A DNA stretch of 64,000 nucleotides from Nocardioides sp. QY071 (GTDB taxonomy: Bacteria > Actinomycetota > Actinomycetes > Propionibacteriales > Nocardioidaceae): contig NZ_CP124681.1 of NCBI RefSeq assembly GCF_029961765.1, positions 2,604,001 to 2,668,000 of the forward strand. Reading direction: 5' to 3'. How positions within the stretch are numbered: the first letter of the stretch is position 1; each line of letters starts with the position of its first letter. The translations under genes and the position numbers were made by a program. This document shows positions 6,404 through 34,828 of the stretch, piece by piece. The notes beneath the pieces were generated by a model. It made no database searches, had not been told where the DNA came from, and was given only the letters and a program-made list of their open reading frames with translations.

Positions 6404-6432
6404 CCAGTGCGCGGCGGAGCCCGGAATGATCC
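6404..6432 (-). promoter_or_regulatory. EPS bipartite element, inverted copy (GGATCA-N17-CACTGG)
   Basis: On the minus strand GGATCA (6432-6427) is followed after exactly 17 bases by CACTGG (6409-6404), a 12/12 match to the element found upstream of the EPS operons. It points away from the acetyltransferase gene, towards the 3' end of the CHAT gene, where no minus-strand gene is apparent. The plus-strand near match at 6473-6501 lies 41 bases away, with a GAAAATCCCC box between them, so the two may form a divergent regulatory region. Confidence 0.6.
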
Positions 6433-6454
6433 GTGACCTGGGCCACCCGCGAGC

Positions 6455-6501
6455 GAAAATCCCCGGCCGTCGGGATCACCGCGACCGGACGGGCGCACCA
6501 G
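6455..6501 (+). promoter_or_regulatory. EPS bipartite element, variant (box + GGATCA-N17-CACCAG)
   Basis: GAAAATCCCC (6455-6464), then 8 bases, GGATCA (6473-6478), 17 bases and CACCAG (6496-6501), which differs from the CACTGG consensus at two positions. It lies immediately upstream of the acetyltransferase that opens the EPS locus. If CACCAG acted as a -10 element, transcription would start close to GTG 6508/ATG 6514, giving a nearly leaderless message. Confidence 0.5.
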
Positions 6502-6513
6502 TTGACCGTGAGC

Positions 6514-7011
6514 ATGCCGCAGACGAACCTCCGTGCCGACCTCCTCCAGGACTGGCGGGCCAACCGGCCCGATCTCCGCGGACGCCTGGTCATGGTCGCC
6601 TTCCGGCTGGCCCACCGCGCCAGCCGGAACAGGTACGGCGCCCGCCGGGTCCCCGCGACGGCGTACGGCCTGGTCTACCGGGTGGTCGTCGAGTGGGTGC
6701 TCAGCATCGAGATCCCGTGGAAGACGTCGATCGGCCCGGGAGCGCGGCTGCGCCACGGCGTCGGGCTGGTGATCAACGACCGGTCGGTGATCGGCGCCCG
6801 GGTCCTGCTGCGGCACGGCGTGACCATCGGCAACGCCGTCGCGGCCGGTCCCTGCCCCGTGATCGGTGACGACGTCGAGATCGGCGCGGGCGCCGTGGTG
6901 ATCGGCGGCATCACCGTCGGCGACGGGGCACGCATCGGCGCCAACGCGGTCGTCACCAAGGACGTGCCGGCCGGCGCGGTCGCCGTCGGCAACCCGATGC
7001 GGCTGCGGTGA
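6514..7011 (+). CDS. Serine acetyltransferase-like hexapeptide acyltransferase
   Basis: 165 residues from ATG 6514. A short helical N-terminus (MPQTNLRADLLQDW) is followed by left-handed beta-helix hexapeptide repeats (IGPGARLRHGVG, IGDDVEIGAGAVVIGG, IGANAVVTKDVPAG). The family transfers acetyl groups from acetyl-CoA; in EPS loci such CysE-like enzymes usually acetylate a sugar rather than serine. A GTG at 6433 would extend the protein by 27 residues, but that stretch overlaps the regulatory elements and does not resemble the family, so I chose ATG 6514. It is followed 87 bases later by the first polymerase operon. Confidence 0.85.
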   Translation: MPQTNLRADLLQDWRANRPDLRGRLVMVAFRLAHRASRNRYGARRVPATAYGLVYRVVVEWVLSIEIPWKTSIGPGARLRHGVGLVINDRSVIGARVLLRHGVTIGNAVAAGPCPVIGDDVEIGAGAVVIGGITVGDGARIGANAVVTKDVPAGAVAVGNPMRLR

Positions 7012-7058
7012 AAGTTTTCCGCGATCACCGGATCACGGAGCGGTCGGCGACGCACTGG
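7010..7058 (+). promoter_or_regulatory. EPS bipartite element upstream of first Wzy operon
   Basis: GAAAGTTTTCC (7010-7020), 9 bases, GGATCA (7030-7035), 17 bases, CACTGG (7053-7058). The ATG of the downstream membrane polymerase lies 40 bases after the second hexamer. The box begins on the last base-pairs of the acetyltransferase stop codon. Confidence 0.65.
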
Positions 7059-7098
7059 TGAGGCGACACCAGCCCCCAGCAGAAGGCCCGACCCACCG

Positions 7099-8406
7099 AT
7101 GAACGTGCGCGAGCACCCCGCCAGCCAGGCTCCCGGCCGGGCCGGTGTGCGGGTGCGCGTGGCCACGCAGCTGCCCACGTGGCCGATCGGCGTGATGTTC
7201 GCCGGACTGCCGCTGTGGTGGGCGAGCGGGCTGCTCGACGTGGTGACGATCCCGTTCGCCCTGCTCATGGCCTGGCTGCTGACCCGGGCCCACGGGGTCC
7301 GGGTGCCGCGCGGCTTCGGCTGGTGGCTGCTCTACTGCGCGTGGGCGCTCGCGTCGGTCGTCATGCTCGACCGCGCCGTGGGCGTCGTGCTCTTCGGCTA
7401 CCGGTGGCTGCTCTGCGTGGCCGCCGGCGTGATCTTCGCCTACGTCTTCAACGCCCGCGCGACGCTCACCTCGCGCTACCTGTCGGGCACGCTGACCCTC
7501 TGGTTCCTCTACGTCGCGCTCGGCGGCTGCCTGGGTCTCCTGGCCCCCACCGGCTCGCTGCGCACGCCGCTGCACCACCTGCTGCCGGCGGCCGCCCGCG
7601 GCAACGAGCTCGTCGGGCAGATGACGATCCGGCCGTTCGCGCAGTACAACCCCGGCGGCTTCCTCGAGGTGTCGCCGCGCCCGACCGCGCCCTTCCTGTA
7701 CACCAACAACTGGGGCAGCGTGTACTCGCTGCTCGCGCCGTTCGTCGTCGTCTACCTGCTGCACACCTGGCGCACCCGCCGCGGCGCGGCCGTCGCCGTG
7801 CTCCTCGTCGCCTCGACGATCCCGGCGTTCCTCACCCTCAACCGCGGCATGTTCGTCAGCCTCGGCATCGCCGTCGCCTACCTCGTCGGGCGCGCCGTGC
7901 TGGCCCGCAACCTGCGCATCGTCGCCGTCGTCGCGCTGGCGGCGACGCTGGGTGTGGTGCTGTTCAACCTGCTGCCCATCAGCGAGCGGCTGGGGATGCG
8001 CCTGAACGAGGACGCCCAGGGGACCAGCAACACCACCCGGATCTCGCTCTACGAGCAGTCGCTGTCGGCCGTCGCCTCCTCGCCACTGCTCGGCCACGCC
8101 ACACCGATCCCGCCGGCGAACCCGCTGGAGCCGAGCGTCGGCACCCAGGGCCAGCTGTGGATGCTGCTGGTCTCGCACGGCCCGGTCGCGGCATTCGCCT
8201 GGATCACGTTCTTCCTCGCGATGTACGCGCGAGGCCGCAGGCGAGGCGACCCGATCGGCGTGGCGGCCTGCACGACGCTCCTCGTCGGGACCGTCCAGCT
8301 GCTGTTCTACGGCATGTTGCCCTACGGCCTGCCGCTCCTCATGATCGCTGCGGCCGTCGCGGCCCGCGGTCCCGAGCTTCCCACCACCGAAGGAGACCTG
8401 CCATGA
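7099..8406 (+). CDS. O-antigen ligase/polymerase-like membrane protein (Wzy type)
   Basis: 435 residues with about ten hydrophobic transmembrane segments and a larger extracytoplasmic loop around residues 150-210, the pattern of the O-antigen ligase/Wzy polymerase family. Such proteins polymerise lipid-linked repeat units or ligate finished chains on the outer face of the membrane. It opens an operon of six overlapping genes (7099-14412: Wzy, GT2, copolymerase, sulfotransferase, kinase-fold protein, flippase). The stop overlaps the next ATG (8403-8406). Confidence 0.85.
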   Translation: MNVREHPASQAPGRAGVRVRVATQLPTWPIGVMFAGLPLWWASGLLDVVTIPFALLMAWLLTRAHGVRVPRGFGWWLLYCAWALASVVMLDRAVGVVLFGYRWLLCVAAGVIFAYVFNARATLTSRYLSGTLTLWFLYVALGGCLGLLAPTGSLRTPLHHLLPAAARGNELVGQMTIRPFAQYNPGGFLEVSPRPTAPFLYTNNWGSVYSLLAPFVVVYLLHTWRTRRGAAVAVLLVASTIPAFLTLNRGMFVSLGIAVAYLVGRAVLARNLRIVAVVALAATLGVVLFNLLPISERLGMRLNEDAQGTSNTTRISLYEQSLSAVASSPLLGHATPIPPANPLEPSVGTQGQLWMLLVSHGPVAAFAWITFFLAMYARGRRRGDPIGVAACTTLLVGTVQLLFYGMLPYGLPLLMIAAAVAARGPELPTTEGDLP

Positions 8407-9329
8407 CCGCGACGGCCTGGCCACGCGTCGGCGTGGTGATCCCCACCCGCAACCGTCCCGACCTGCTGCGCCGCGCCATCGCGTCGGTCGCCGCGCAGGA
8501 CTACCCGGGCGTCGTCGAGACCGTCGTGGTCTTCGACGGTACGACGCCCGACCCCAGCCTGGTGGCGTCGTACGACAGCGCTCGGCCGGTCCGCGTCGTC
8601 AGCAACACACGCGTCGCCGGCCTCTCCGGCGCCCGCAACACGGGGATCCTGGCCCTCGACACCGAGTACGTCGCGTTCTGCGACGACGACGACCACTGGC
8701 TCCCGTCGAAGGTACGCCGCCAGGTCATCCGTGCCGAGGCCGCGGACCGCCCCGAGATGGTGACCTGCTCGATCACCGTCGACTACGACGGCACCCGTAC
8801 CGACCGCTTCGCCGGGACCGACACGGTCAGCCACGCCGACCTGACCCGCTCCATCTACGCGATGCTGCACTCGTCGTGCTTCTTCTTCGACCGCCGCGCG
8901 CTGGTCGAGGGGATCGGCCTGGTCAACGAGGAGCTGCCGCAGAGCCAGCTCGAGGACTGGGACATCAAGCTGCGGGCCGCCCAGCGCCGCCCGATCGCCC
9001 ACCTCGACGAGCCGCTCACCGTGGTCCAGTGGGGCCGGACCTCGATGTTCGCCCGCCGCTGGGACTCCAAGAACGCCGCCCTGCGGGCGATCCTGCAGCT
9101 GCACCCGGCGATCGCTGCAGACGCCCGGGGCGCCGCCCGGGTCTACGGCCAGCTGGCCTTCGGTACGGCGGCCGCCGGTGACCGCGCCGAGTCGTGGCAG
9201 TGGATCCGGCGCACTGTGCGCACCGATCCGCGGCAGTGGCGGGCCGCGGTCGCTCTCGCCGTCCTGCCCCATCCGCCCAACGCCGAGCGCGTGCTCAACA
9301 CGCTGCACCGCTTCGGGAGGGGCGTGTGA
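8403..9329 (+). CDS. Family 2 glycosyltransferase
   Basis: 308 residues, GT-A fold. The N-terminus VGVVIPTRNRPDLLRRAI is the nucleotide-binding start of GT2 enzymes, and CDDDDHW near residue 97 carries the DxD metal-binding motif. LEDWDIKLR around residue 185 matches the acceptor-side ED region. No membrane segment is seen, so it is a cytoplasmic transferase that adds one sugar to the lipid-linked repeat. Donor and acceptor cannot be told from sequence. ATG 8403 overlaps the stop of the polymerase gene. Confidence 0.88.
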   Translation: MTATAWPRVGVVIPTRNRPDLLRRAIASVAAQDYPGVVETVVVFDGTTPDPSLVASYDSARPVRVVSNTRVAGLSGARNTGILALDTEYVAFCDDDDHWLPSKVRRQVIRAEAADRPEMVTCSITVDYDGTRTDRFAGTDTVSHADLTRSIYAMLHSSCFFFDRRALVEGIGLVNEELPQSQLEDWDIKLRAAQRRPIAHLDEPLTVVQWGRTSMFARRWDSKNAALRAILQLHPAIAADARGAARVYGQLAFGTAAAGDRAESWQWIRRTVRTDPRQWRAAVALAVLPHPPNAERVLNTLHRFGRGV

Positions 9330-10714
9330 ACGCGCCTAACCGGCCGCCCATCACCCCGACCGTCACCCCGACCGTCACCCCGACCGCGACGACGCCCAGC
9401 AGACAAGGAACCCGGACAGTGAGCGCAGACCTGCAGTCCACGGTCGAGATCGGACGATTCGTCCTGGTCCTCCGCCGCCGCTGGAAGGTGGTGGCCCTGG
9501 TGAGCGCCGCCCTGGTCGCCGCGGCCTGCGTGTGGACGGTGCTCGCCCCGAGCTCGGCGACCGCGACGACCCAGGTCAACGTCAACGTGATCGCGACCGA
9601 CCCGTTCGCAGCTCAGCGCACGTCCTCCGACCTGCTGGACCCGGCCACCGAGCGGCAGATCGTGCTCTCCTCCGAGGTGATCGACCGCGCCGCGGCCGAC
9701 CTCGGCAAGGGCACCGCGCCCCGCTCGGTGCGCGCCGGCCTCGACGCCCAGATGGTCGCCGGCTCCACCGTGATGCGGATCAGCTGGACCGGGGCCGAAC
9801 CGCGCCGGGCCCAGGCGGTCGCGGACGCGGTCGCCACCGAGTACCTCGCCTACCGCGGCGAGCAGGCCGCCGCCCGCCAGCAGGACGCGCTCGAGCCGCT
9901 CGTCGCGCGCCGCGACGCGCTCAACGCCCAGCTGCAGCAGACCGATGCCGGCCGGAGTGCGCTGCTCAGCGAGCTCAACCTGGTCCTCACCCAGATCACC
10001 AAGGTCTCCGGCCTCGCGACCTCGGGCGGCACCGTGCTCGTCAAGGCCGCGGACACGCCGCCGGCGACCGGGACGAAGGCATCCACCGTGCTGCTCGCCG
10101 CCGGTGTGCTCGGCCTGCTCCTCGGCGCCTTCGCGGTCATCCTCGACGACATGGTCCGGCGCCGGGTGTACGACGCCGCCGACGTGGTCGACGGCAACGG
10201 CGGCCCGCTGCTGGCCCGGTTGCAGGCCCGCACCATGACCGAGCTCGACCAGCCGGTCGACGCCGACGCGCTGCAGTCGGTCTGGCACCGGCTCCGCATC
10301 CAGATCGCCGACGACATCCCGGTCATCCTCGTCATCGGTGCCACCATCGGCGCGCCGGTCGCCGCGGTCGCCCGCGCGCTCGAGCTGGCCGCGGCCGCGG
10401 TCGACGACGCGAGCCCCCAGGTGTCGCGGCGGGTCCGCGCGCTCGCCGTACCAGCGGAGGAGGGCTATGCGGTCGCGCTCTCGCTCGCCCCGCGCGCCAC
10501 CGTCGTCGTGCTGGTCGCCGAGGACGGCCGGACCACGGTCCGCAGGCTGGCCACCCTGGCCGACCACCTCCGCGCGGTCGGCGTCGAGCCGGCCGGCACC
10601 GTGGTCGCGCACCGGTTCACCGAGGCCGCCGGCAACGCACCTGCGCCGGCCCCGGCGGCGGCGTCGCCGGCGGCGGCCCCGGCCGCCGAGCTGCAGACGG
10701 GAGAGGCCCGATGA
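9326..10714 (+). CDS. Wzz-type polysaccharide copolymerase with P-loop-less kinase-like domain
   Basis: 462 residues. A short N-terminus leads to TM1 (VVALVSAALVAAACVWTVL), an extracytoplasmic Wzz domain, and TM2 near residue 250 (TVLLAAGVLGLLLGAFAVIL). The remaining cytoplasmic part resembles the Rossmann fold of BY-kinases, but the P-loop position reads VIGATIGAPVAAV, with no GKS/T. It therefore probably controls chain length structurally, without kinase activity. Start: GTG 9326 has GGAGG five bases upstream and overlaps the previous stop; GTG 9419, with AAGGA, is an alternative that would skip a PTVTPTVTP low-complexity stretch. Confidence 0.82.
   Translation: MNAPNRPPITPTVTPTVTPTATTPSRQGTRTVSADLQSTVEIGRFVLVLRRRWKVVALVSAALVAAACVWTVLAPSSATATTQVNVNVIATDPFAAQRTSSDLLDPATERQIVLSSEVIDRAAADLGKGTAPRSVRAGLDAQMVAGSTVMRISWTGAEPRRAQAVADAVATEYLAYRGEQAAARQQDALEPLVARRDALNAQLQQTDAGRSALLSELNLVLTQITKVSGLATSGGTVLVKAADTPPATGTKASTVLLAAGVLGLLLGAFAVILDDMVRRRVYDAADVVDGNGGPLLARLQARTMTELDQPVDADALQSVWHRLRIQIADDIPVILVIGATIGAPVAAVARALELAAAAVDDASPQVSRRVRALAVPAEEGYAVALSLAPRATVVVLVAEDGRTTVRRLATLADHLRAVGVEPAGTVVAHRFTEAAGNAPAPAPAAASPAAAPAAELQTGEAR
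9351..9386 (+). repeat. Three tandem 12-bp repeats
   Basis: TCACCCCGACCG is repeated exactly three times (9351, 9363, 9375). It encodes the PTVTPTVTP segment if translation starts at GTG 9326, or is a leader repeat if it starts at GTG 9419. The repeat is prone to copy-number slippage in steps that keep the frame. Confidence 0.8.
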
Positions 10715-15814: not shown

Positions 15815-15889
15815 GCTTCGATTCTATCGCACATATGTTCGAATGGCGAGCCTTGTTGCGGACTTTTCCCTTGTTTCTAGGGGTTTCGG

Positions 15890-16505: not shown

Positions 16506-16518
16506 TCATGGGCGTCGG

Positions 16519-21120: not shown

Positions 21121-21131
21121 TCGCGCGCCGG

Positions 21132-22103: not shown

Positions 22104-22177
22104 GGGCCGACGCAACCTCAGCGCGTCGCCCGGGTGGTGGCCGATCGGAAAGCTTCAACAATCTTGGCCAAAGCGAT

Positions 22178-22206
22178 GGATCACGCACGGCCCATTCCTG
22201 CACTGG
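22178..22206 (+). promoter_or_regulatory. EPS bipartite element upstream of the histidine kinase operon
   Basis: GGATCA (22178-22183), 17 bases, CACTGG (22201-22206), followed by AGAGG. The kinase ATG is 59 bases downstream. A GGAAAGCTTC box lies 21 bases upstream of the first hexamer (22147-22156), a longer gap than in the other copies. Presence here would allow the regulator pair to control itself. Confidence 0.65.
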
Positions 22207-22265
22207 AGAGGGGAGCACCGGGTCTCCGGAGCTCCGGTGAGACCGCTCGACAGTGAGGACGCCCG

Positions 22266-22952
22266 ATGACGACACTCCAGGCCAGGCCGCGGCCGGCTCA
22301 GCACCCGAGGTCCGCCCGTCGTCCCGCCGACATCTCCGCCGAGGCGCAGGTACGCCGCTACCAGGCCCAGCTGCACGAGATCAACGCGACCGTCGCCGGC
22401 CTCGCCTCGGCCGCCGAGCTGCTGTCCGTGCTGCCCCCCGGCGAGCGTGGCCGCTTCGAGGCGATGATGCTCAGCGAGCTGCGCCGCCTCCAGCGGGTCG
22501 TCGTCGGCGCGCCCGAAACCACCTGGGGCGTCGTCACCGTCGACGACGTCGTGGCGCCTCTCGTCGCCGCCCACATCGCACGCGGGAGCCGGGTCGGCTG
22601 GCAGGGTTCGGGCCTGCACGCGCTCGGCTGCGCCGACGTGGTGAGCGAGGCGGTCAACGTGCTCCTCGACAACGCCGCCCGGCACGGCGCGGGCGACGAC
22701 ATCCGGGTCGAGGCCCATCGGTACGCCGCCCGGGTCGAGGTCCGCGTCACCGACGGCGGCGCCGGGATCCCCGCCGACCTGCGGCCCGAGGTCTTCGGCT
22801 GGGGACGCCAGCGGACCGGCTCGGCCGGGCAGGGCATCGGCCTGGCCGTGGCGCGCGGCCGGCTGCGCGAGTGGAACGCCGACCTCCGGCTCGAGGACGC
22901 CGTCCGCACCACGTTCGTCATCGACCTGCCGGCGCCGGGGGACGCCCGGTGA
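22266..22952 (+). CDS. Soluble sensor histidine kinase
   Basis: 228 residues and no membrane segment. An H-box-like QLHEINATVAGL holds the probable phospho-acceptor His37. The ATPase domain shows an N-box (EAVNVLLDNAARHG, ~140), a G1 box (DGGAGIP) and a G2 box (GQGIGLAVAR). With no sensor domain of its own, it must take its signal from a partner or the cytoplasm. GTGA at 22949-22952 couples it to the response regulator. Its operon carries the EPS bipartite element, so it may regulate the locus. Confidence 0.85.
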   Translation: MTTLQARPRPAQHPRSARRPADISAEAQVRRYQAQLHEINATVAGLASAAELLSVLPPGERGRFEAMMLSELRRLQRVVVGAPETTWGVVTVDDVVAPLVAAHIARGSRVGWQGSGLHALGCADVVSEAVNVLLDNAARHGAGDDIRVEAHRYAARVEVRVTDGGAGIPADLRPEVFGWGRQRTGSAGQGIGLAVARGRLREWNADLRLEDAVRTTFVIDLPAPGDAR

Positions 22953-23629
22953 GCACGGTCGAGCGCCGGGTCGCGATCCTCGACGACCACGAGCTGCTGG
23001 CCGAGTCCCTGGAGATCGCCCTGTCCGTGCACGGCTACGACGTACGGCGGGTTCCGGTACCCGTCGACGGCGGCGCACCTCGCAGCCTCGTCGACGCCCT
23101 GGTGCGGCTGCGCCCACGGGTCCTGCTCCTCGACCTCGACCTCGGCGCCTTCGGTGACGGGACCACGCTGATCGCGCCGCTGCAGCGCGCGGGAGTGCGG
23201 GTCGTCGTCCTCACCGGCGCGACCGACAGAGCGCGTTGGGGGCGCGCGCTCTCCGAGGGCGCGCACACCGTGCTGTCCAAGGCGAGCGCGCTGATCGAGG
23301 TCATCTCGACCGTGCGGCGCGTCGACGACGGCCACGCCGTCCTCGGCCCGGAGGAGCGCGCCGAGCTCGTCGCGGCGTGGCGCGGCCGGGTGGCGGAGCG
23401 CGGCGCCGACGACCTCCGGCTCGCCCGGCTCAGCCCCCGGGAGGCCCGGGTCCTGGGCCTGCTGATGACGGGCATGCACGTGCGCGACATCGCGGTCGAC
23501 CGGGTGGTCTCCGAGGCCACCATCCGCTCCCAGGTGCACGCGATCCTCACCAAGCTCGACGTGTCCTCGCAGCTGGCCGCCGTCTCCCTCGCCCACCGCA
23601 GCAACTGGCAGCCACCGGCGTACGCCTAG
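22949..23629 (+). CDS. NarL/LuxR-type response regulator
   Basis: 226 residues. Receiver domain with acidic LDDHE near the N-terminus, phospho-acceptor Asp62 in LLLDLDLG and Lys111 in VLSKAS. The C-terminal LuxR helix-turn-helix is LSPREARVLGLLMTGMHVRD onwards, ending SQLAAVSLAHR. It should bind DNA when phosphorylated by the kinase encoded just upstream. It is a natural candidate to act at the GGATCA-N17-CACTGG elements, but nothing in the sequence proves this. Confidence 0.9.
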   Translation: MSTVERRVAILDDHELLAESLEIALSVHGYDVRRVPVPVDGGAPRSLVDALVRLRPRVLLLDLDLGAFGDGTTLIAPLQRAGVRVVVLTGATDRARWGRALSEGAHTVLSKASALIEVISTVRRVDDGHAVLGPEERAELVAAWRGRVAERGADDLRLARLSPREARVLGLLMTGMHVRDIAVDRVVSEATIRSQVHAILTKLDVSSQLAAVSLAHRSNWQPPAYA

Positions 23630-23651
23630 GCGGCAGGACCAGAGCCCGTCC

Positions 23652-23700
23652 GAGATTTCTGCGCAGCCCGTGGATCAACCCGCACCACCGCCCGCACTGG
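23652..23700 (+). promoter_or_regulatory. EPS bipartite element upstream of the coiled-coil/copolymerase operon
   Basis: GAGATTTCT (23652-23660), 11 bases, GGATCA (23672-23677), 17 bases, CACTGG (23695-23700), then AGAGG. The first downstream gene starts at TTG 23778, 77 bases later. It lies 42 bases after the response regulator stop. Confidence 0.65.
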
Positions 23701-23777
23701 AGAGGAGTCAGGTCGTCCGGCCCCACATCCCGTCCGACCTGACACCCCGATCCCTGACCGACACAGGAGCAACTCCG

Positions 23778-24158
23778 TTGGCCGACCCGACCGATGACGC
23801 CGCCGCCGAGCCGAGCTGGCCGTCGTTCATCCCGCACCGCGAGATCGACGGGCTGCTCGAGCGCGTCGAGAACGCCGCCAGCCTGGAGCCCGCCGAGGCC
23901 GCACGCCTGCTGCGCATGATCTCCAAGGAGGCGCAACGGCTGCGGGCGATGGCGCTGCGGATGACGACGGAGAAGCTCGCGGAGGCCGACCGGGAGGCCA
24001 GCGGGATCCTCAGCGAGGCGCTGACCCACGCGGACTCCATGCGCAGCATCGGCCTCGCGACGCTCAACTCCCGGCTCGACGAGGCGGACCGGCTGATGGC
24101 CACGGTCCGCGAGGCCTTCCGCCTGGAGCTGCGGGCCGCCGACCTTCGCGACGCCTGA
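23778..24158 (+). CDS. Small coiled-coil protein, paralogue of 26588-26923
   Basis: 126 residues from TTG 23778, with AGGAG eight bases upstream; the earlier GTG at 23670 would start before the regulatory element and is rejected. The protein is almost wholly helical and rich in Glu, Ala and Arg (IDGLLERVENAASLEPAEA, then TTEKLAEADREASGILSEAL). It aligns over its length with the protein encoded at 26588, with shared IDG-L, TTE-L and EAD/READ positions. No catalytic motif. By context, a cytoplasmic scaffold for the copolymerase machinery; this is inference. Confidence 0.75.
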   Translation: MADPTDDAAAEPSWPSFIPHREIDGLLERVENAASLEPAEAARLLRMISKEAQRLRAMALRMTTEKLAEADREASGILSEALTHADSMRSIGLATLNSRLDEADRLMATVREAFRLELRAADLRDA

Positions 24159-24201
24159 CCCCGACGACACCCACGACGACCCCGTTCCCTGGAGGAATCC
24201 G

Positions 24202-25152
24202 ATGTTCAACCGCCAGCGCAACCAGAGCGGACAGCAGTCCGCGATCGCCTCGGCCTTCGACGACGTCCTCGCCGAGCTCGGCTCCAAGGCCGCCGACGCG
24301 CCCGCCGGGACCGAGGAGGGCGAGGCGCCCGAGGCAGCCACCGGTGCCGCCGCGGCCGAGCCGGGCGAGCCGGCCGAGCCGGCCGTACCGAACGGAGCAG
24401 CCCCCGCACCGTCGGTGACCGACCGGATCACCGAGCACGCCGAGACCCTGCGTGCCACCCGCGACGCACAGCACAAGGCCGAGGAGATGCTCGCCTTGGC
24501 CGCCACCGCCCGCAGCGAGGCCACCGACCAGGCCGAGCAGATCGTGCTCGAGGCCAAGTCGGCCGCCGAGCAGGTCCGCGCGGACGCCGACGAGGAGGCC
24601 GAGCGCACCCGTCGCGAGGCGGTCGAGTGGGTCAAGGAGCAGCGGGACCGGGTCGAGAGCGCCACCGCGCTGCTCACCCGCAACGCCGAGCGCGACGCCG
24701 AGAACATCCGGACCGAGGCGATGCGCTCGGCCATGATCGAGGCCGAGCAGACCGCACGCCTCTACGTCGGCGAGGCCGCCGCCCGCGGGGCCCGCGACGC
24801 GGAGGAGATCCGCGGGACCGCGCGCGAGGTGCTGCACCGCGCCGCCGAGCTCGGGGCCGACCTGCAGACCTCGCTCGGCGAGCTGGTGCAGGTGCTCCAG
24901 CTGGCCACGGGCGCCGTCAGCGACCAGCTCAGCGCGATCGACCAGCTCCTCGACGAGGTGCGCCGCGACTCCGCGGCCGCCCCGGCGCCGGAGCCCCAGG
25001 ACGCACCGAGCGACGAGTCGGGCGAGAGCACCGACACCGACGAGACGCCGGAGGACGCCGGGACGCCGGAGAAGGACGAGAAGGACGACCGGTCCGACGC
25101 CGGCGACGGCTCCCGCAAGCTCGGCGCGCTGTTCCGCGACCAGGCGAACTGA
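24202..25152 (+). CDS. Coiled-coil protein of EPS operon (DivIVA-like character)
   Basis: 316 residues, ATG 24202 with GGAGG seven bases upstream. A low-complexity Ala/Glu/Pro segment (~30-75) leads to a long coiled coil (~80-250) with heptads such as AEEMLALAATARSEATDQAE, then an acidic Asp/Glu/Ser/Thr tail and a basic end. No enzymatic motif or membrane segment. Length and composition recall DivIVA- or Wag31-type polar scaffolds, but no DivIVA N-terminal signature is present. It is encoded immediately before the copolymerase, suggesting a scaffold for its placement. Confidence 0.72.
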   Translation: MFNRQRNQSGQQSAIASAFDDVLAELGSKAADAPAGTEEGEAPEAATGAAAAEPGEPAEPAVPNGAAPAPSVTDRITEHAETLRATRDAQHKAEEMLALAATARSEATDQAEQIVLEAKSAAEQVRADADEEAERTRREAVEWVKEQRDRVESATALLTRNAERDAENIRTEAMRSAMIEAEQTARLYVGEAAARGARDAEEIRGTAREVLHRAAELGADLQTSLGELVQVLQLATGAVSDQLSAIDQLLDEVRRDSAAAPAPEPQDAPSDESGESTDTDETPEDAGTPEKDEKDDRSDAGDGSRKLGALFRDQAN

Positions 25153-25210
25153 CTCCTCGCCGCGCGCCTCCCCACCCCGCACGACCCGTACATCCAGTGA
25201 GGACCAGCAG

Positions 25211-26551: not shown

Positions 26552-26587
26552 CGTCACGGACCGACCCCACCACAAGGAGTGGCATCG

Positions 26588-26923
26588 ATGATCAGCACTC
26601 ACGCCGGGACGTTCGAGGACATCGACGGCTTCCTGGCCCACCTCGAGTACGCGGTCACCGTGGACCAGGCCGAGGCGCCACGCGTCCTGCGCTCGCTGGC
26701 CGACCACGCCCGCAGGGTGCGCGGCAGCACCTTCCGGCGTACGACCGAGATGCTCGACGAGGGCAGTCGCGAGGCGGACCGGATCGTGGCCCGGTCCACC
26801 GCCCAGGCCGAGCAGATCCTGCAAGCGGCCCTGGTCGCCCTCGACCGCCGCGTAGACGAGGCTGGTCAGCTCGGTGCGAGCACCCGCGCCGCGCTCGAGG
26901 TCGAGCTGCGGGGCCGGCCGTGA
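26588..26923 (+). CDS. Small coiled-coil protein, paralogue of 23778-24158
   Basis: 111 residues from ATG 26588 with AAGGAG nine bases upstream; a GTG at 26579 would lie on the Shine-Dalgarno. Helical throughout (IDGFLAHLEYAVTVDQAEA, TTEMLDEGSREADRIVARST). It matches the 23778 product over about 95 residues. Its stop overlaps the start of the sugar transferase (GTGA, 26920-26923). The pair flanks the coiled-coil/copolymerase genes, as if they form one assembly. Confidence 0.72.
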   Translation: MISTHAGTFEDIDGFLAHLEYAVTVDQAEAPRVLRSLADHARRVRGSTFRRTTEMLDEGSREADRIVARSTAQAEQILQAALVALDRRVDEAGQLGASTRAALEVELRGRP

Positions 26924-27612: not shown

Positions 27613-27613
27613 C

Positions 27614-28720
27614 ATGCGGGTCCTGCACGTCGTCGAGTCGTTCGGCGGGGGAGTGCTGAGCGCGGTGCTCAGCATGGTCGACGCGACGCCAGACATCGAG
27701 CACCAACTCGCGATCTGGCACCGACGCGACCATGCCGACACCGGCGACGAGCGCGCGGCCTTCGCCGCGGTGCACGTCCTCCCGGGCCCGCCGCGCCGGG
27801 CGGCGCGGGGGCTGCGCAACCTGGTGCGTCGGGTCGGAGCAGACCTGGTCCACGCCCACTCGTCGTACGCCGGCGTGCTGGCGCGCTCCTGCGACCTCGG
27901 CGCCCCGGTGGCCTACAGCCCGCACTGCTTCGCGTTCGAGCGCACCGACCTCAGTGCGGTGAGCCGCACGGCGATCCGCGAGGTCGAGCGGTCGCTGGTC
28001 CGTCGTACCGACGTGCTCGTGGCCTGCTCCCCCCACGAGGGGAGCCTCGGGGCCGAGCTGGGCTTCCGCCGCGTCGTCACCGTGCCGAACCGGGCCCTGC
28101 ACCCGCCGCAGGTCCGGGTCCGCCGCGGCGAGCCGTTCCGGGTGGTCACGGTGGGACGGGTCACCGAGCAGAAGGACTGGCGCCACCTGGTCGAGGTCAA
28201 GCGCGAGGCCGACCGCCAGGCTGCGGCCCGCGGCGCGGCCGGCCTGCACTGGGAGTGGCTCGGCAGCGGCGACACCGAGGGCGAGGACGCGCTGCGCACC
28301 GCGGGCGTCGAGGTCTCCGGCTGGCTGCCCCGAACCGAGGTCGTCGCCCGGCTCGGCGCCGCGCAGGCCTACGTGCACACGGCCGCGTGGGAGGGCGCCC
28401 CGGTGAGCATCCTCGAGGCGGCGGCCGTCGGACTGCCGATCGTGGCCCGGGCGATCCCGACGCTGGTCAGCGACGACGTCCCCGGGCTGGAGCCCACGGT
28501 GGAGGGCCAGGCGGAGCGGCTGCTGGACCTGCACGAGCCCCTCGCCTGGGCCCGCGCCCACCGCCGCTCGCTGGCGTTCTCGACCGACCACTCGGTCTCG
28601 CTCCAGCGCTACCGGCTCACCACGGCGTACCGCCACGTGCCGGCCTCCGTGAGGAACCCTCGCGAAATTCCCCGCGCCCGGATGGATCACAGCAGCTACT
28701 CCGACGCACTGGTGCGGTGA
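27614..28720 (+). CDS. Family 4 glycosyltransferase
   Basis: 368 residues, GT-B fold. The N-terminus HVVESFGGGVLSAVLSMV is the usual glycine-rich acceptor-side loop, and the donor site is WEGAPVSILEAAAVGLPIV (E-x7-E type) near residue 257. The last ~25 codons overlap the next EPS bipartite element (28664-28712), so the C-terminus is constrained by DNA as well as protein function. No membrane segment. ATG 27614 lies just after the sugar transferase stop. Confidence 0.88.
   Translation: MRVLHVVESFGGGVLSAVLSMVDATPDIEHQLAIWHRRDHADTGDERAAFAAVHVLPGPPRRAARGLRNLVRRVGADLVHAHSSYAGVLARSCDLGAPVAYSPHCFAFERTDLSAVSRTAIREVERSLVRRTDVLVACSPHEGSLGAELGFRRVVTVPNRALHPPQVRVRRGEPFRVVTVGRVTEQKDWRHLVEVKREADRQAAARGAAGLHWEWLGSGDTEGEDALRTAGVEVSGWLPRTEVVARLGAAQAYVHTAAWEGAPVSILEAAAVGLPIVARAIPTLVSDDVPGLEPTVEGQAERLLDLHEPLAWARAHRRSLAFSTDHSVSLQRYRLTTAYRHVPASVRNPREIPRARMDHSSYSDALVR
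28664..28712 (+). promoter_or_regulatory. EPS bipartite element inside the 3' end of a glycosyltransferase gene
   Basis: GAAATTCCCC (28664-28673), 10 bases, GGATCA (28684-28689), 17 bases, CACTGG (28707-28712), then TGCGG. The whole element lies in coding sequence, just before the stop at 28718-28720. The next gene starts 55 bases after the second hexamer. Confidence 0.65.
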
Positions 28721-28767
28721 AGGGAGGCCCGCCCGGGCCACCGCACTGACCAGAGCGGAGTACGACG

Positions 28768-30906
28768 ATGACGCAGGTTCTCGATCCCGCGGCCGTCTCC
28801 CGGACCGGCCAGCAGGACCGGCTGCGGATCACCGTGGTCCAGCAGGGCGGCGTCCTCGGCGGGGCCGAGCGCTGGCAGCTGCAGCTCGCCGAGGCCACCG
28901 ACCGCGCCGACCTCGACGTCGTCGCCCTCGGCGGCGGACCCACCGCAGCGACCTGGAGCCGTCGCGGCGTCCCGGTCGCCACCGTCCGCTCGGAGCGGCG
29001 CGCCTCGCGGATCCCGCTCCTCGCGGCCCGGGTCGGCGCTGCGCTGCGCTCCTCGCGGCCCGACGTCGTCGTCGCCCACGGCGTCAAGGCGGCGCTCGCG
29101 GCAGCCCCGACCGCCCGCGCCCTCGGCATCCCCTTCGTGTGGGTGCGCCACGACGGCTCCTTCGAGGGCTGGCCCACGGCCCTCCTCGACCGGGTCAGCG
29201 ACGGCCAGGTGGCCACCGGTGCGTGGCTCCTCGAGGGCCGCCGCCTGCGCAGCTCGCTGCTCCTGAACCCGCCCCGCACCACCGACCACCTCACCCGCGT
29301 GGAGGCGCGCGGCGCCCTCGGCCTGGAGGTCCCGAGCGGTCGACTGGTCGCCGGCATGGGCACCCGGATCGTCCACGGCAAGGGCATCGACGACGCCATC
29401 CGCGCGCTGGCCGATCCCGCCGCGGCCGCCTGGGACCTGGTCGTCGCCGGCATCCACGATCCCGACGACCCCGGCGAGCAGCTGCGCCTGGTCGCGCTCG
29501 CCACCGAGCTCGGGGTCGCGCACCGGGTCCGCTTCCTCGGCGAGGTGCCGGGCTTCGCCCGGCTGGCCGGCGCCTTCGACGCCGTCCTCGTGCTCACCAA
29601 GCCCACCGAGTCGATGCCCTGGCACCGCGAGGCCTTCGGCATGACGGCCTTCGAGGCCCTCACCGCCGGCGTACCCGTCGTCGTCACCCCACCGCTCGGC
29701 GCGATGGCCCGGGAGGGCGGCGTCGAGGTCCGAGCGGGAGCGCCGGGCGATGTCGCCGCGGCCCTGCTCGCGCTCGAGGACCCCGACACCCGCACCCGAT
29801 GCGGTACGGCGGGCGCCCGGGTCGCGGCGTCGTACCCGGATGCCCGGGCCGCGGCGGACGTCCTCGTCGACTTCCTCGCCACCCTGGCCCATCGTCCCGG
29901 CGTCGGCCTGCCGCCCACCGGTCCCGCGATCAGCGTCGTGACCACCGTGCTGGACGACGAGGCTGCCGCCAAGGAGCTGCTGTCGGCGCTGGTGCCCCAG
30001 CTCGGCCCCCACGACGAGGTCGTCGTCGTCGACGGCGGGTCGAGCGACGACACCGCCGGCGTCGTGCGGGCCTTCGCGGCCTTCGACGAGCGGGTGCGCC
30101 TGCTGCTCGAGCCCGGCGCCGGGATCTCGCAGGGCCGCAACATCGGGATCCGGGCCGCCAGCCACGACCGGATCGCCTGCACCGACGCGGGCTGCGTCCC
30201 CTCGCCCGGTTGGCTGGCCGCGTTCCGGCGCGCCTTCGCCCGCCACCCCGAGGTCGACCTGTGGACCGGGACCTACCGGGTCGGGGCCGCCCAGCCCTGG
30301 GAGCACGCCCTGGCCGCGGTCGGGTACCCGAGCGTCGAGGAGCTGGCCCGCCCGACGCCACTGGCCCGCGCCTACGGCCGCCTCTTCGGGCGGGCGTTCG
30401 ACGCCTCGATGCCGACCGGGCGCTCGGTCGCCTTCGCCCGGGTCGCCTGGGCGAGCGTCGGCGGCTTCCCCGAGAACCTCCAGACCGGCGAGGACGTCCT
30501 CTTCGGCCGCCGCATCGTCGCCGCCGGTGGCACCGCCCGGATGGTGCGCGACGCCGAGGTCAGCTGGGCCCAGCGCCCGACCTTCCGGGCCAACCTGACC
30601 ATGTACCGCCGCTACGGCGAGGGCAGCGGCAACTCGCTCGACCGCCGCCTGCTGGGCCGTGACCTGGCCAGGGTCGCCGCCTACACCGCGGCGGCCGGCA
30701 TCGCGCTGCGCGGTTCGACGGGTGCCCGGGCAGCCGCGAGCGCCGGCCTGGCGGCGTACCTCTCGCTCCCCGTCGGCCGGGCCCTGCAGGCACCGGATCC
30801 GCTGCGCACAGTGCCGCTCGTCGCGCCCGTCGCCGCCGCCCGCGACCTCGTCAAGGCGTACGGCGCGCTCTCCGCGGCCGTGCGCCGCCGGGGCCGTCCG
30901 CGATGA
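28768..30906 (+). CDS. Bifunctional GT4-GT2 glycosyltransferase fusion
   Basis: 712 residues. Residues ~15-380 are a GT-B/GT4 domain: the N-terminal VVQQGGVLGGAERWQLQLA loop and the donor-binding EAFGMTAFEALTAGVPVVV. From about 385 a second, GT-A/GT2 domain starts (AISVVTTVLDDE), with VVVDGGSSDD, the acceptor-side TGEDVLFGRRI and a C-terminal amphipathic or membrane-associated stretch (~625-700). Both halves keep their key motifs, so the protein may add two sugars in sequence. Its stop overlaps the next ATG (30903-30906). Confidence 0.88.
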   Translation: MTQVLDPAAVSRTGQQDRLRITVVQQGGVLGGAERWQLQLAEATDRADLDVVALGGGPTAATWSRRGVPVATVRSERRASRIPLLAARVGAALRSSRPDVVVAHGVKAALAAAPTARALGIPFVWVRHDGSFEGWPTALLDRVSDGQVATGAWLLEGRRLRSSLLLNPPRTTDHLTRVEARGALGLEVPSGRLVAGMGTRIVHGKGIDDAIRALADPAAAAWDLVVAGIHDPDDPGEQLRLVALATELGVAHRVRFLGEVPGFARLAGAFDAVLVLTKPTESMPWHREAFGMTAFEALTAGVPVVVTPPLGAMAREGGVEVRAGAPGDVAAALLALEDPDTRTRCGTAGARVAASYPDARAAADVLVDFLATLAHRPGVGLPPTGPAISVVTTVLDDEAAAKELLSALVPQLGPHDEVVVVDGGSSDDTAGVVRAFAAFDERVRLLLEPGAGISQGRNIGIRAASHDRIACTDAGCVPSPGWLAAFRRAFARHPEVDLWTGTYRVGAAQPWEHALAAVGYPSVEELARPTPLARAYGRLFGRAFDASMPTGRSVAFARVAWASVGGFPENLQTGEDVLFGRRIVAAGGTARMVRDAEVSWAQRPTFRANLTMYRRYGEGSGNSLDRRLLGRDLARVAAYTAAAGIALRGSTGARAAASAGLAAYLSLPVGRALQAPDPLRTVPLVAPVAAARDLVKAYGALSAAVRRRGRPR

Positions 30907-32192
30907 CGGTTCCCGCCCGTCTGCCGGCGTCGGCCCTCGCGGTCGTCGTCGCCCTCGTGGTGCTCCCGTTCGGCGGTGCCTTCTCGATCGGGCTCAGCGT
31001 CGCGTTCGTGGCGATGAGCGTGCCCGCCGCGATCGCCGCCTGGCTGCTCGTCAAGGACGAGCGGCCGGTGCCGGCCTCCCTGCTGCTCCTCGGCCTGGCC
31101 CTCGGGATCGTCACGAGCGTGGTCTCGGCCGCCGGCGGGGTGAACCCCGGCGACGCCGTCACCCGCGTCCTCATCGCGTGCATCGCGCTCGGCTACGCCG
31201 TCGGGGTGGCCATGGCGCACCGGCCCGGCCACGAGCGCGGCGGGCCGGACCTGCTCGTCGTGGTCGGTGGCTGCATCGGCGCCTACGCGCTCTCCGGCGC
31301 GGGCGGTCTGCGGGCCGCGGCCGGTGGCTGGGTCGTCGACGGCCGGCTCACCGGTCCGTTCGCCCAGCCCAACGAGCTCGGCATCTTCTGCGCGGGGGTG
31401 CTCCCCGTCGCCGTCGCGTGCCTGGTCACGGCGCGCTCGCGGGCTCGCGCCGCGGTCCTCGCCGCCGCGACGCTGTGCATCGCGCTGGCCTGGACCCTGA
31501 GCATGTCGCGCGGGGCCTGGATCGGCGGCACCGTCGCGCTGGCCTGCCTGGCCGTCGGTGTCCCGCGGACCCGGCGGCTGCTGCGCCGCGCCGGCGCCGC
31601 GGTGCTCGCCACCTGCGTGCTCGCCCTGGTCCTGCCGGCCGACGTCCCGCTGCTCGGCATCCTCGGCACCCGGCTGCGCTCGCTGGGCGACACCGGTGCC
31701 AACGAGTACGACGCCCGCCCGCTGATCTGGGGCGAGGCCTGGCGCCAGATCTCGGACCGCCCGTGGTTCGGCGTCGGACCCGACGGCTACCGGGTGGCCG
31801 CCACCAGCTCGGTGAGCACCGTGTCGGCCTACGGCGCCGAGCACGCCCACGACCTCTACCTCACCGTGCTCGTCGAGCGCGGTGTCATCGGCCTGACCGC
31901 CGGCGTGATCGTGCTGGCCGGCTGTGTGCTGGCGGTCCGGAGGCAGCTGGCCGCGCAGGCCGTGGCGGCGCGGGTCGGCGACGAGGACGGCGCCGTGCTC
32001 TCGGTGCGTGCCCTGGCCGTGCTCGCCGGCCTGCTGGCCATCGCGATCCACGGCGTCTTCGACATGCCCCTGTGGAACCCCATCGTCTACGGCTTCACCT
32101 GGACCCTCCTCGGCATGGCCATCGTCGCCGAGACCGTCCATGTCCCGACCCCCCGGCCCACTCCCCAGCCAGAAGCGAGGACCTCCCCATGA
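30903..32192 (+). CDS. O-antigen ligase/polymerase-like membrane protein (Wzy type)
   Basis: 429 residues, about ten transmembrane segments. The family signatures are visible: GRLTGPFAQPNELGIFCAG, a MSRGAW motif near 200, and a large outer loop with RPLIWGEAWRQISDRPWFGV and AHDLYLTVLVERG (~275-325). It is the second polymerase-type protein of the locus. ATGA overlaps join it to the genes before and after, in an operon ending in a terminator at 34735. Confidence 0.9.
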   Translation: MTVPARLPASALAVVVALVVLPFGGAFSIGLSVAFVAMSVPAAIAAWLLVKDERPVPASLLLLGLALGIVTSVVSAAGGVNPGDAVTRVLIACIALGYAVGVAMAHRPGHERGGPDLLVVVGGCIGAYALSGAGGLRAAAGGWVVDGRLTGPFAQPNELGIFCAGVLPVAVACLVTARSRARAAVLAAATLCIALAWTLSMSRGAWIGGTVALACLAVGVPRTRRLLRRAGAAVLATCVLALVLPADVPLLGILGTRLRSLGDTGANEYDARPLIWGEAWRQISDRPWFGVGPDGYRVAATSSVSTVSAYGAEHAHDLYLTVLVERGVIGLTAGVIVLAGCVLAVRRQLAAQAVAARVGDEDGAVLSVRALAVLAGLLAIAIHGVFDMPLWNPIVYGFTWTLLGMAIVAETVHVPTPRPTPQPEARTSP

Positions 32193-32764
32193 CCACCGCA
32201 GGACAGGCCCAACGACAGCGCGACCGGTGGCGGTACATCGGCATCCTGGTGGGTGGGCTGGCGCTGGCGGTCGCCTTCGGGATCCAGCTGATCCTGCTGA
32301 TCCCCACCACCTACACCGCGACCAGCGCGGTCGCGCTGCGGCCGCTGTCGGCCGATGTGCCGGCCGACTCGGTCGAGATGCTCGCCCACGAGTACGGCGT
32401 CTCGCTCAGCTCCGCCGAGACGGCCGAGCTTGCCCGCGCCGATGGCTCCGGCGCGGGCTCCGGCGCGGCCGACAACGACGCCGACGTCTCGGTGAGCACC
32501 GTGCAGGACCCCGGCACCGCGACCCTGCGGATCGTGGTCGAGTCGACCAGCCGCACCGCGGCGATCGATGCGGCCAACCAGCTCGCGGCCTACGCCGTCG
32601 CCGAGGGCGAGGACGACACCACGACCCGGGTGGTGCCCGTGGTCGAGGCCGGGGCCGCCGGCGTGACCGCCGTACCCCCGCGCCAGCTCTACGTCGCGAC
32701 GCTGCTCTGCCTCGCGGCGCTGGTGCTGGCCGGCGGCCTGTACCGGATCAGGGAGCGGACATGA
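32189..32764 (+). CDS. Short Wzz-like two-TM protein
   Basis: 191 residues. TM1 (YIGILVGGLALAVAFGIQLILL, ~17-38), a Wzz-type domain beginning TTYTATSAVALRPL, and TM2 near the C-terminus (YVATLLCLAALVLAGGLY). There is no cytoplasmic kinase domain. It is probably a chain-length regulator or export partner of the Wzy product encoded just before it; both genes overlap by ATGA. GCGAGG serves as ribosome-binding site. Confidence 0.8.
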   Translation: MTTAGQAQRQRDRWRYIGILVGGLALAVAFGIQLILLIPTTYTATSAVALRPLSADVPADSVEMLAHEYGVSLSSAETAELARADGSGAGSGAADNDADVSVSTVQDPGTATLRIVVESTSRTAAIDAANQLAAYAVAEGEDDTTTRVVPVVEAGAAGVTAVPPRQLYVATLLCLAALVLAGGLYRIRERT

Positions 32765-33573
32765 CCCCCCGCGTGCTGATGTACCACGGCGTCGACCACG
32801 TCGCGCGCGAGCGGGACCCGCACGGCATGTTCGTGACCCCCGCGAACTTCCGCGCCCAGATGGAGCACCTCGTCGCCGCCGGGTTCGTGCCCGTCACCGA
32901 GCAGGCCTACCTGGCCGCGCGCGACGGAGCCCGGCTGCCGCGCAAGGCGGTGCTGATCACCTTCGACGACGGCTACCAGGGCGTGGGGGAGCATGCCGCT
33001 CCGATCCTGGAGTCGCTGGGGATCCCGAGCGTGCTCTACGTCCCGGTCGACCTGCTGGGGGGCCGCGCCACCTGGCTGGGCGACCGCCTCCGCTATCCGC
33101 TCCTGTCCGCCGGGGAGGTGCAGGGGCTCCGTGCGCAGGGGATGGCGATCGGGGCCCACGGCTCCGACCACGCGGACCTGACCCGGGCCGGTGACACCGA
33201 CCTGCGCCGCCAGACCGTCGAGGCCCGCGCCGCGCTCACCGAGCTGGTCGGCGAGGAGGTCGCCACCTTCGCGTTCCCCTACGGCCTCCACGACCGGCGG
33301 GTGCGGGCCGCGGTCGAGGCCGCGGGCTACCGGGCCGCGTTCTCCGTGCACGACCCCGCCGGCCGGTTCGGCATCCAGCGCGTGGACGTCAACGCCACCG
33401 ACACGCTGCGCACGCTGCGGGTCAAGCTGCACGGCCTCTACCCGGCCGCTCGTCGTACCTCCCGCCACGTGCCTCGCACCCGGCGGCTGGTCCACGACCT
33501 GCTCGGCAGCGCGTACGACGGCCCGGGCGCCGTTGCCGGCCCCGCCGTGCCGGTGGAGGTGGTGAGGTCATGA
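32761..33573 (+). CDS. Polysaccharide deacetylase (NodB/CE4)
   Basis: 270 residues. The NodB domain shows motif 1 ITFDDGY (metal-binding Asp, ~residue 66), motif 2 AHGSDHADL (His-rich metal site, ~127), and FAFPYG. It should remove N-acetyl groups from a GlcNAc-type polymer. No clear signal peptide is present, so it may act on the inner face or be exported by another route. ATGA overlaps on both sides put it in the same operon as the second polymerase. Confidence 0.9.
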   Translation: MTPRVLMYHGVDHVARERDPHGMFVTPANFRAQMEHLVAAGFVPVTEQAYLAARDGARLPRKAVLITFDDGYQGVGEHAAPILESLGIPSVLYVPVDLLGGRATWLGDRLRYPLLSAGEVQGLRAQGMAIGAHGSDHADLTRAGDTDLRRQTVEARAALTELVGEEVATFAFPYGLHDRRVRAAVEAAGYRAAFSVHDPAGRFGIQRVDVNATDTLRTLRVKLHGLYPAARRTSRHVPRTRRLVHDLLGSAYDGPGAVAGPAVPVEVVRS

Positions 33574-34715
33574 GACGCCTGCTGCGCCGCGGCCTGGTCG
33601 CGCTGGCCGTCATCGTCCTGTGGGCCACCGGCACCCTGGTGATGCAGTGGACCACCGCACAGTCGGCCGACCGCACGCCGTCCGGACGGCCGGACCCGGT
33701 CGCGTCCGTGCCCGCTCCCGAGACACCGGCCCCCGCGACGCCCACCGGCCCGCCGGTCGCCGACCTGGACCTCGGGGTCCAGCTCTCCGCCCACCACCGC
33801 ACCGGCCCGGGCTATGCCCGCAAGGTGCTCGCCCGCCTGCAGCGGGCCGGCGCCGGTTGGGTGCGGGTCGACGTCGGCTGGGCCACCCTCCAGCCGACCC
33901 GGCGCGGCCCGTTCGAGCGGTGGTACGCCGAGCTGATCGACGACGTGCTCGACGCCGCGCAGGACCACGGCCTCAAGGTGATCCTCGAGTTCTGGCTGAC
34001 CCCGAGCTGGGCCGGCGCCAACGGCAGCCTCTACGCGCCGCCGACCGACCCGGCCGACTACGCCCGCGCCATCGGCCGCGCCGCCCAGCGCTGGAGCGAC
34101 CGGGTGGACGCCTGGGAGATCTGGAACGAGCCGAACTTCGAGGGCTTCTTCGAGGGCGCCGACCCGCAGACCTATGTCGACCTGCTCTGCGCCGCCTACC
34201 CGGCGGTCAAGGAGCAGGACGACGCGCCGGTGCTGTTCGGCGGCATCATGTACAACGACGCGCCCTGGCTCACCCGGGCCTACGAGGCCGGTGCCGCCGG
34301 CTGCTTCGACGCGCTGGCGGTGCACCCCTACATCGGGCCGAGCGACGCGGAGCCCGAGACCGCGTCGGTCGGCGCGGTGTGGCGGCTGACCAGCACCCCG
34401 ATGGTGCACGACGTGATGCAGCAGTGGGGCGACGGCGGCAAGCAGATCTGGATCACGGAGCTCGGCTGGTCCACCGGCACCGAGAACGACGGGAACGCCT
34501 GGGACCGGCCGGTCACCGTGCCACAGCAGGCCGACTACCTGCGCCGGGCGGTGCGGCTGATCCGGGCCGAGTACCCCTACGTCGGCCCGATCATCTGGTA
34601 CCGCGACGTCGACGGACCCAGCAGGCGCTACCAGGACGGCTTCGGCCTGATGCGCGGCGACCTGCGGGCCAAGCCCGCTCTCGAGGCCTTCGAGGCCGCC
34701 GTGCGCGGCGAGTGA
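33570..34715 (+). CDS. Secreted clan-A glycoside hydrolase (GH5/GH39-like)
   Basis: 381 residues. Signal or anchor helix (LVALAVIVLWATGTLVMQW, ~9-27), a Pro/Ala/Thr linker, then a TIM barrel. Acid/base Glu187 in IWNEPN and nucleophile Glu297 in WITELGW are both present. Such enzymes may trim the polymer or help release it. Family choice between GH5 and GH39 is not certain. It is the last gene before the terminator at 34735-34780. Confidence 0.85.
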   Translation: MRRLLRRGLVALAVIVLWATGTLVMQWTTAQSADRTPSGRPDPVASVPAPETPAPATPTGPPVADLDLGVQLSAHHRTGPGYARKVLARLQRAGAGWVRVDVGWATLQPTRRGPFERWYAELIDDVLDAAQDHGLKVILEFWLTPSWAGANGSLYAPPTDPADYARAIGRAAQRWSDRVDAWEIWNEPNFEGFFEGADPQTYVDLLCAAYPAVKEQDDAPVLFGGIMYNDAPWLTRAYEAGAAGCFDALAVHPYIGPSDAEPETASVGAVWRLTSTPMVHDVMQQWGDGGKQIWITELGWSTGTENDGNAWDRPVTVPQQADYLRRAVRLIRAEYPYVGPIIWYRDVDGPSRRYQDGFGLMRGDLRAKPALEAFEAAVRGE

Positions 34716-34734
34716 GCGCCGGGCGCACCCGATC

Positions 34735-34780
34735 GTTCTGGCCCTGCTGACGCCCCATCGTCGGCAGGGCCAGAACTTTT
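34735..34780 (+). terminator. Rho-independent terminator
   Basis: A perfect 13-bp stem (GTTCTGGCCCTGC 34735-34747 with GCAGGGCCAGAAC 34764-34776), a 16-base loop and TTTT (34777-34780). It is the clearest terminator in the window and ends the 28768-34715 operon. Its right arm and T-run form the GAACTTTTCC box of the next EPS element. Confidence 0.88.
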
Positions 34781-34819
34781 CCAGGTCGATGGATCACCAG
34801 CAGGCGTGGCGTGCACTGG
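34773..34819 (+). promoter_or_regulatory. EPS bipartite element upstream of the Wzx-Wzy fusion gene
   Basis: GAACTTTTCC (34773-34782), 8 bases, GGATCA (34791-34796), 17 bases, CACTGG (34814-34819), then TGAGG. The annotated ATG is only nine bases downstream; GTG 34883 would give a leader more like those of the other units. Confidence 0.65.
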
Positions 34820-34828
34820 TGAGGTGCC

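Follow-up and report, generated by a model that had tools for sequence, protein, structure and literature searches.

Promoters read by extracytoplasmic function (ECF, group IV) sigma factors consist of two short boxes without a TATAAT-like -10 box and serve a small regulon located by the sigma gene. Leaderless transcripts, in which the RNA begins at the start codon, are a known kind of transcript in actinobacteria. According to the part consulted of one study, a central A-tract is widespread in ECF -35 boxes (PMC8103513). For the ECF54 group, the consulted sections of the description report CHAT-domain proteins in the genetic context, a proposed proteolytic control and a Geodermatophilus model protein, and present the group as working without an anti-sigma factor (PMC8999054). 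In Craspase, as far as the consulted portion of the source goes, CASP-sigma is bound and inhibited by Csx30, which the TPR-CHAT protease Csx29 cleaves, and a motif has been published for CASP-sigma (PMC10028731). Here, we analyzed a stretch of 64,000 nt from Nocardioides sp. QY071 (NZ_CP124681.1; genome of 5.70 Mb, labelled G000), hereafter the window, in which a bipartite element, GGATCA-N17-CACTGG, marks an exopolysaccharide gene cluster. By its sequence features, the element is strongly supported as a sigma-dependent -35/-10 promoter that would often give leaderless mRNA, and it is very probably read by the ECF sigma factor of the cluster (2501-3133), whose activity would be controlled through an anti-sigma-like protein cleaved by a CHAT protein.

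The six exact copies listed in the initial annotation (five on the plus strand and one on the minus strand) were all recovered at their positions, together with the CACCAG variant at 6473 (+). The genome-wide search that it called for returned nine exact matches, six of them inside 28 kb, and no match to the reversed pattern. Its claim that chance does not explain the element was borne out by the Poisson probability of six copies in 28.4 kb, P ~1.6e-14, with the three matches elsewhere in the genome taken as background. When two mismatches were allowed, the window held 10 matches against a shuffle mean of 4.66 (10 being reached in 3 of 100 shuffles), and the genome held 545, fewer than the 799 of the reversed control; since there is no genome-wide enrichment with two mismatches, the signal is confined to exact or near-consensus sites.

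Exact matches are present in 92 of 215 genomes of the genus, mostly one each, as the background predicts. Besides G000 and G298, a genome of the same species, clustered exact matches were found only in G347 (six within 34 kb), a second species with a locus orthologous to the window and proteins mostly 75-95% identical. Across seven orthologous sites of the window and G347, all 42 positions of the -35 hexamer and all 28 of GCAC are identical, compared with 61 of 112 spacer positions. Two conserved boxes at a fixed spacing enclose a non-conserved spacer, as is the case for a -35/-10 promoter. The orthologous clusters of G132, G014, G002, G409, G419, and G401 carry one or two exact sites each. 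In the G347 assembled locus, an exact site with GTG at +1 also follows galE (position 41512, L091), and no counterpart was found in the window at the matching place near 42400.

A total of 24 loci were assembled around ECF genes, of which 17 (610 kb, window included) were counted; the seven left out (G204, G182, G150, G345, G031, G349, and G289) had revealed no site at first reading. The pattern GGATCA.{16,17}CAC[CT][AGT]G gave 63 matches in the 17 loci, including eight from the window and eight from G347, versus 0-6 for nine control patterns. The gap is 17 in 39 matches and 16 in 24, so that the 17-base spacing proposed in the initial annotation holds in the window, while relatives use 16 as well. 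Likewise, CACTGG as the second box describes the six copies but not the sites in general; its final letters vary, and the core is therefore GGATCA and (G)CAC[TC][AGT]G. An ATG or GTG follows after exactly 6 nt in 44 of the 63 matches. Two matches inside genes (window 34450, in a GH5 gene, and G419 9653, in a Wzx/Wzy gene) were dropped to give a curated set of 61 sites, in which G precedes CAC in 60, A or T directly follows the hexamer in all 61, the seventh base after the box is a purine in all 61, and a pyrimidine occupies -1 in 54. The purine is likewise found in the 17 curated sites without a start codon at the seventh base. A/T content is raised ~12-19 bases upstream of GGATCA in this set; an A/T-rich box upstream of the hexamer is common but not universal.

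GGATCA would accordingly serve as the -35 box (positions -35 to -30 when the spacing is 17 bp) and (G)CAC[TC][AGT]G, 16-17 bp from it, as the -10 box (positions -12 to -7), the predicted start being the purine seven bases after the -10 box. The purine at this place and the start-codon spacing fit a promoter whose transcripts would begin at that base, and mRNAs would be leaderless at the many sites where the predicted +1 coincides with the start codon's first base. Boxes, spacing, start-codon distance, and +7 purine together give strong support to the alternative-sigma promoter that had been suggested. The element resembles ECF promoters in its two short boxes 16-17 bp apart, in the absence of a TATAAT-like -10 box, and in a regulon that adjoins the sigma gene, and differs from ECF promoters generally in that many starts look leaderless. 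Unlike in other leaderless transcripts, the leaderless starts here seem to be built into the promoter spacing of one sigma regulon. We know of no -10 box of the form GCACYDG, and GGATCA lacks the central A-tract that the consulted part of the ECF study describes (PMC8103513). The sites of the window and the three genes of the ECF module are as follows:

2501-3133, plus strand: ECF sigma factor, proposed reader of the promoters
3130-3726, plus strand: soluble anti-sigma-like protein, predicted helical N-terminal part and beta-sandwich
3747-6317, plus strand: TPR-CHAT protein, putative protease dyad His727/Cys769
6404-6432, minus strand: promoter site GGATCA-N17-CACTGG, predicted +1 at the A of ATG 6397, leaderless small open reading frame (ORF)
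6473-6501, plus strand: promoter site GGATCA-N17-CACCAG, predicted +1 at the G of GTG 6508, leaderless acyltransferase gene
7030-7058, plus strand: promoter site, predicted +1 at 7065, 34-nt leader to ATG 7099 (Wzy-like)
22178-22206, plus strand: promoter site, predicted +1 at 22213, 53-nt leader, histidine kinase and LuxR-type response regulator
23672-23700, plus strand: promoter site, predicted +1 at 23707, 71-nt leader to TTG 23778
28684-28712, plus strand: promoter site, predicted +1 at 28719, 49-nt leader to ATG 28768 (two-domain glycosyltransferase)
34791-34819, plus strand: promoter site, predicted +1 at 34826, 3-nt leader to ATG 34829 (Wzx/Wzy fusion)

The 6473 site has the same CACCAG variant in G347, with GTG at +1 in both species. 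Leaders at the leadered sites of the window measure 3-71 nt. Among the four leadered promoters that were folded, those at 22178 and 23672 have predicted stems beginning at +1, in the window and G347 alike, whereas no stem begins at the predicted +1 in the leaders of 7030 and 28684. For the 23672 leader, the first 42 of 71 nt were folded, and a 9-bp stem opens at its predicted +1 (23707). These stems agree with the predicted start, folding by itself being weak evidence. The stem-loops that open the two leaders (22213-22234 and 23707-23743 in the window) are possibly mRNA stabilisers. The element could instead be an RNA signal in the 5' leader, acting in antitermination or translation control, as it lies close to the starts and hairpins follow some copies. 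Such a signal would require a start further upstream, however, while start codons lie either at a fixed distance of 6 nt or at varying distances, and both hairpins starting at +1 begin after the element. An RNA element is disfavoured by this start-codon geometry, and its probability is close to negligible.

The promoter sites accompany a particular protein module. The protein encoded at 2501-3133 matches Pfam Sigma70_r2 (41.3 bits, cut-off 24) and, over residues 53-202, TIGR02937 (68 bits, cut-off 42.9); Pfam gave no region 4 match at E up to 0.01, and TIGR02937 spans the region-4 part. The structural model of the 199-aa protein (3130-3726; mean pLDDT 85.6, pTM 0.58) has four helices in residues 7-71 and a C-terminal beta-sandwich, and Foldseek returned nothing with an E-value of 0.001 or below. 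Residues 1-75 of the protein could be aligned with one chain of the SigE-ChrR complex, presumably ChrR, at Z 7.8 but with a root-mean-square deviation of 11.9 over 71 residues, and the alignment is hence not decisive. A zf-HC2 domain was weakly matched in 4 of 18 homologues (best E 0.0086), and the C-terminus is weakly carboxypeptidase-regulatory-like. The CHAT protein (3747-6317) scores 140 bits with Pfam CHAT, and no fewer than 16 of the 17 homologues compared retain H727 and C769. It also hits PDB chains named 'CHAT domain protein' (E 7e-4 or weaker), which we take to be Craspase entries. A PADLOC scan gave weak matches only, the best for the CHAT protein being BovA (E 0.0049). No strongly hydrophobic stretch was detected in three homologues each of the 199-aa and CHAT proteins.

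The ECF/199-aa/TPR-CHAT trio, or its on-contig part, is kept beside the sites in relatives. Among the 18 genomes of the genus whose ECF match reaches 58% identity or more, two of them from one species, 17 hold the pattern followed by a start codon (61 places), as against 26 of the 197 other genus genomes, with one place each (Fisher P ~1e-12). In G349, a site with ATG at +1 is divergent from the ECF gene; a site in an Aeromicrobium genome, also with ATG at +1, lies 15 kb from the ECF gene, and two loci of metagenome-assembled genomes, L210 (Propionibacteriaceae) and L211 (Nostocoides), have one site each adjoining it. Outside the genus, a class-wide search of 394 genomes found ECF matches at E <1e-60 only in G126; among named relatives, the comparison covered 80 of 207. 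The paralogue modules G000par and G347par have sites on both sides and no exopolysaccharide genes in the 20 kb read, which indicates that the motif tracks the ECF module and not the exopolysaccharide genes. Promoter geometry, conservation, and linkage to the trio are evident from the sequences themselves.

The second ECF/anti-sigma-like/CHAT module of G000 lies at C1 about 3908700-3912850 (L152), and its sigma factor is 69% identical to that of the window. The promoters might therefore be read by another sigma factor, either this paralogue (C1:3912006) or an unlinked ECF: the same motif flanks the paralogue module on both sides, so that two sigmas may share a specificity, and 31 ECF candidates were counted at first look in the G000 genome. 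On the other side, 13 of the 17 genus genomes with matches and an ECF of at least 58% identity have one such ECF, and in 15 of the 17 a site lies on the contig of that ECF within ~25 kb, the loci of G132 and G031 being split over contigs. Reading by another sigma factor is accordingly unlikely, though it keeps a small share of the probability.

Several observations weigh against assigning the element to the ECF sigma factor of the cluster. ECF promoters carry motifs of the GGAAC / CGTC kind, and the boxes described here do not look like those. The 63 matches were counted over loci chosen for having shown sites, and of the seven loci left out only G349 later yielded a site near its ECF gene. 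The association test is partly circular, because the pattern was derived from some of the same genomes and because the 58% line was drawn after the table had been seen; when all 37 genomes with an ECF at E up to 1e-20 are taken, the pattern is present in 18, versus 25 of 178, and some of the single matches in the 26 genomes without a close ECF are clearly coding. No site was found near the ECF gene in G289 (58% ECF) or in relatives near 50% identity (G204, G182, G150, G345, and G329, the last with only 3 kb read), and the relaxed core gave 8 matches in 25 distant or left-out loci versus 2-5 for controls, which is no clear excess. In the window itself, no such site lies upstream of the ECF gene 2501-3133. 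The lack of sites in the relatives at about 50% identity suggests that the boxes may change with the sigma factor, or that the link is confined to closer relatives.

Five matches lie away from any ECF gene identified here (G165:C1:821767, G339:C1:3924990, G419:C164:9924, G370:C10:406401, and G033:C14:25425) and may be either targets or chance occurrences; the one in G370 precedes a Dps-like gene and the one in G033 has a galE fragment nearby and an A-tract upstream. The scan around these five and around the small ORF did not capture 16-nt spacings.

The initial annotation had offered a two-part activator site as the other option and had pointed to the regulator at 22949. Two genes behind the 22178 site bear on it:

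22266-22952, plus strand: histidine kinase, likely target rather than reader
22949-23629, plus strand: LuxR-type response regulator, likely target rather than reader

A LuxR-type regulator binding both half-sites, with RNA polymerase starting elsewhere, would suit a regulator that sits in the cluster and whose own operon opens with a site. However, kinase/regulator matches (at least 60 aa, E no higher than 1e-7) occur in only 1 of 23 other assembled loci (G347), and 18 kinase-homologue loci (360 kb, ECF gene absent in 20 kb) hold four core matches, none with ATG/GTG at +7. The element has no obvious symmetry by eye, and its fixed start-codon distance and +7 purine suit a promoter. The activator option thus found no support and is very improbable; the response regulator as reader was rejected on its distribution across the loci. 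A blind dyad search in the loci of 20 relatives yielded mostly GC-rich noise among the matches listed.

Returning to the ECF sigma factor as the reader of the promoters, we infer that this protein recognises the two boxes, that the anti-sigma-like protein binds it, and that a proteolytic step intervenes. The soluble anti-sigma-like protein (3130-3726) would hold the ECF sigma factor; upon a signal, the TPR-CHAT caspase-like protein would cut the anti-sigma-like protein, and the cleavage would free the sigma factor so that the promoters fire, switching on the export, glycosyltransferase, acyltransferase, and kinase/regulator genes together. The trio perhaps resembles the ECF54 group. It shares with ECF54 a CHAT protein beside the ECF, and would differ from the group, as presented in the consulted sections, in the conserved anti-sigma-like protein encoded here between sigma and CHAT (PMC8999054). 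Like Craspase in the consulted portion of its description, it encodes together a TPR-CHAT protease, a small protein, and an ECF-like sigma factor (PMC10028731). The CHAT protein has the His/Cys dyad of a Craspase-type CHAT domain, while the targets, in contrast to Craspase, are exopolysaccharide genes. It reaches 23.7 bits with the NCBIfam Csx29 model, within the CHAT core only and below the cut-off of 300, and no chain named Csx30 was among six profile matches at E up to 1. No Cas7-11 was seen among 20 proteins in a Pfam scan; no dedicated Cas7-11 or CRISPR array search was made.

In addition, the minus-strand copy precedes a conserved small ORF:

6296-6397, minus strand: small ORF, 33 aa, MRPTPPATEPTCRCHPCYHDLGVHAPGHDAGVK, with a 35-aa counterpart in G347

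The exact site at 6432-6404 stands as first described, and the correction is the conserved small ORF downstream of it; its G347 orthologue is a CACCAG version followed by the same small ORF. The ORF is divergent from the acyltransferase gene and overlaps the 3' end of the CHAT gene, and its Cys/His-rich product, which contains a CRCHPCYHD motif, could be an unannotated mini-protein that binds metal. A stretch of ~35 bp at about 22134-22168, upstream of the 22178 promoter, is identical in G347, more so than its flanks, and may house a promoter for the divergent glycosyltransferase gene at 22115 or an additional site for a regulator. Behind the 23672 site, a coiled-coil protein gene (TTG 23778) is followed by Wzz and WbaP genes. 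The proteins of 23778-24158, 24202-25152, and 26579-26923 are coiled-coil in appearance and have no Pfam match. The first and third look related (~40% identity), and relatives often sit near WbaP genes, although the query for the first was cut out of frame (23749) and its matches are given no weight.

No such promoter was found described in the open literature, the ECF reclassification, possibly with predicted motifs, lying outside the search. Papers pairing both hexamers were unrelated and those on Nocardioides exopolysaccharide, sigma factor, and promoter did not treat this subject, both judged by title, and no paper was found that joins CHAT, caspase-like, sigma factor, anti-sigma factor, and Streptomyces. 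The chances are about even that, taken jointly, a cytoplasmic TPR-CHAT protein cuts a soluble anti-sigma factor and frees an ECF sigma factor of GGATCA/GCACYDG specificity to turn on the entire exopolysaccharide pathway, in many cases through leaderless promoters, as a CRISPR-free relative of Craspase, and that this promoter specificity has so far gone unrecognised. The results provide a precise promoter code and a target list for a CHAT-linked ECF sigma factor outside CRISPR, connect a predicted caspase-like protease with a transcriptional outcome, and make exopolysaccharide control in these actinobacteria testable. If true, the sigma arm of Craspase would be the CRISPR-captured version of a widespread protease-sigma switch.

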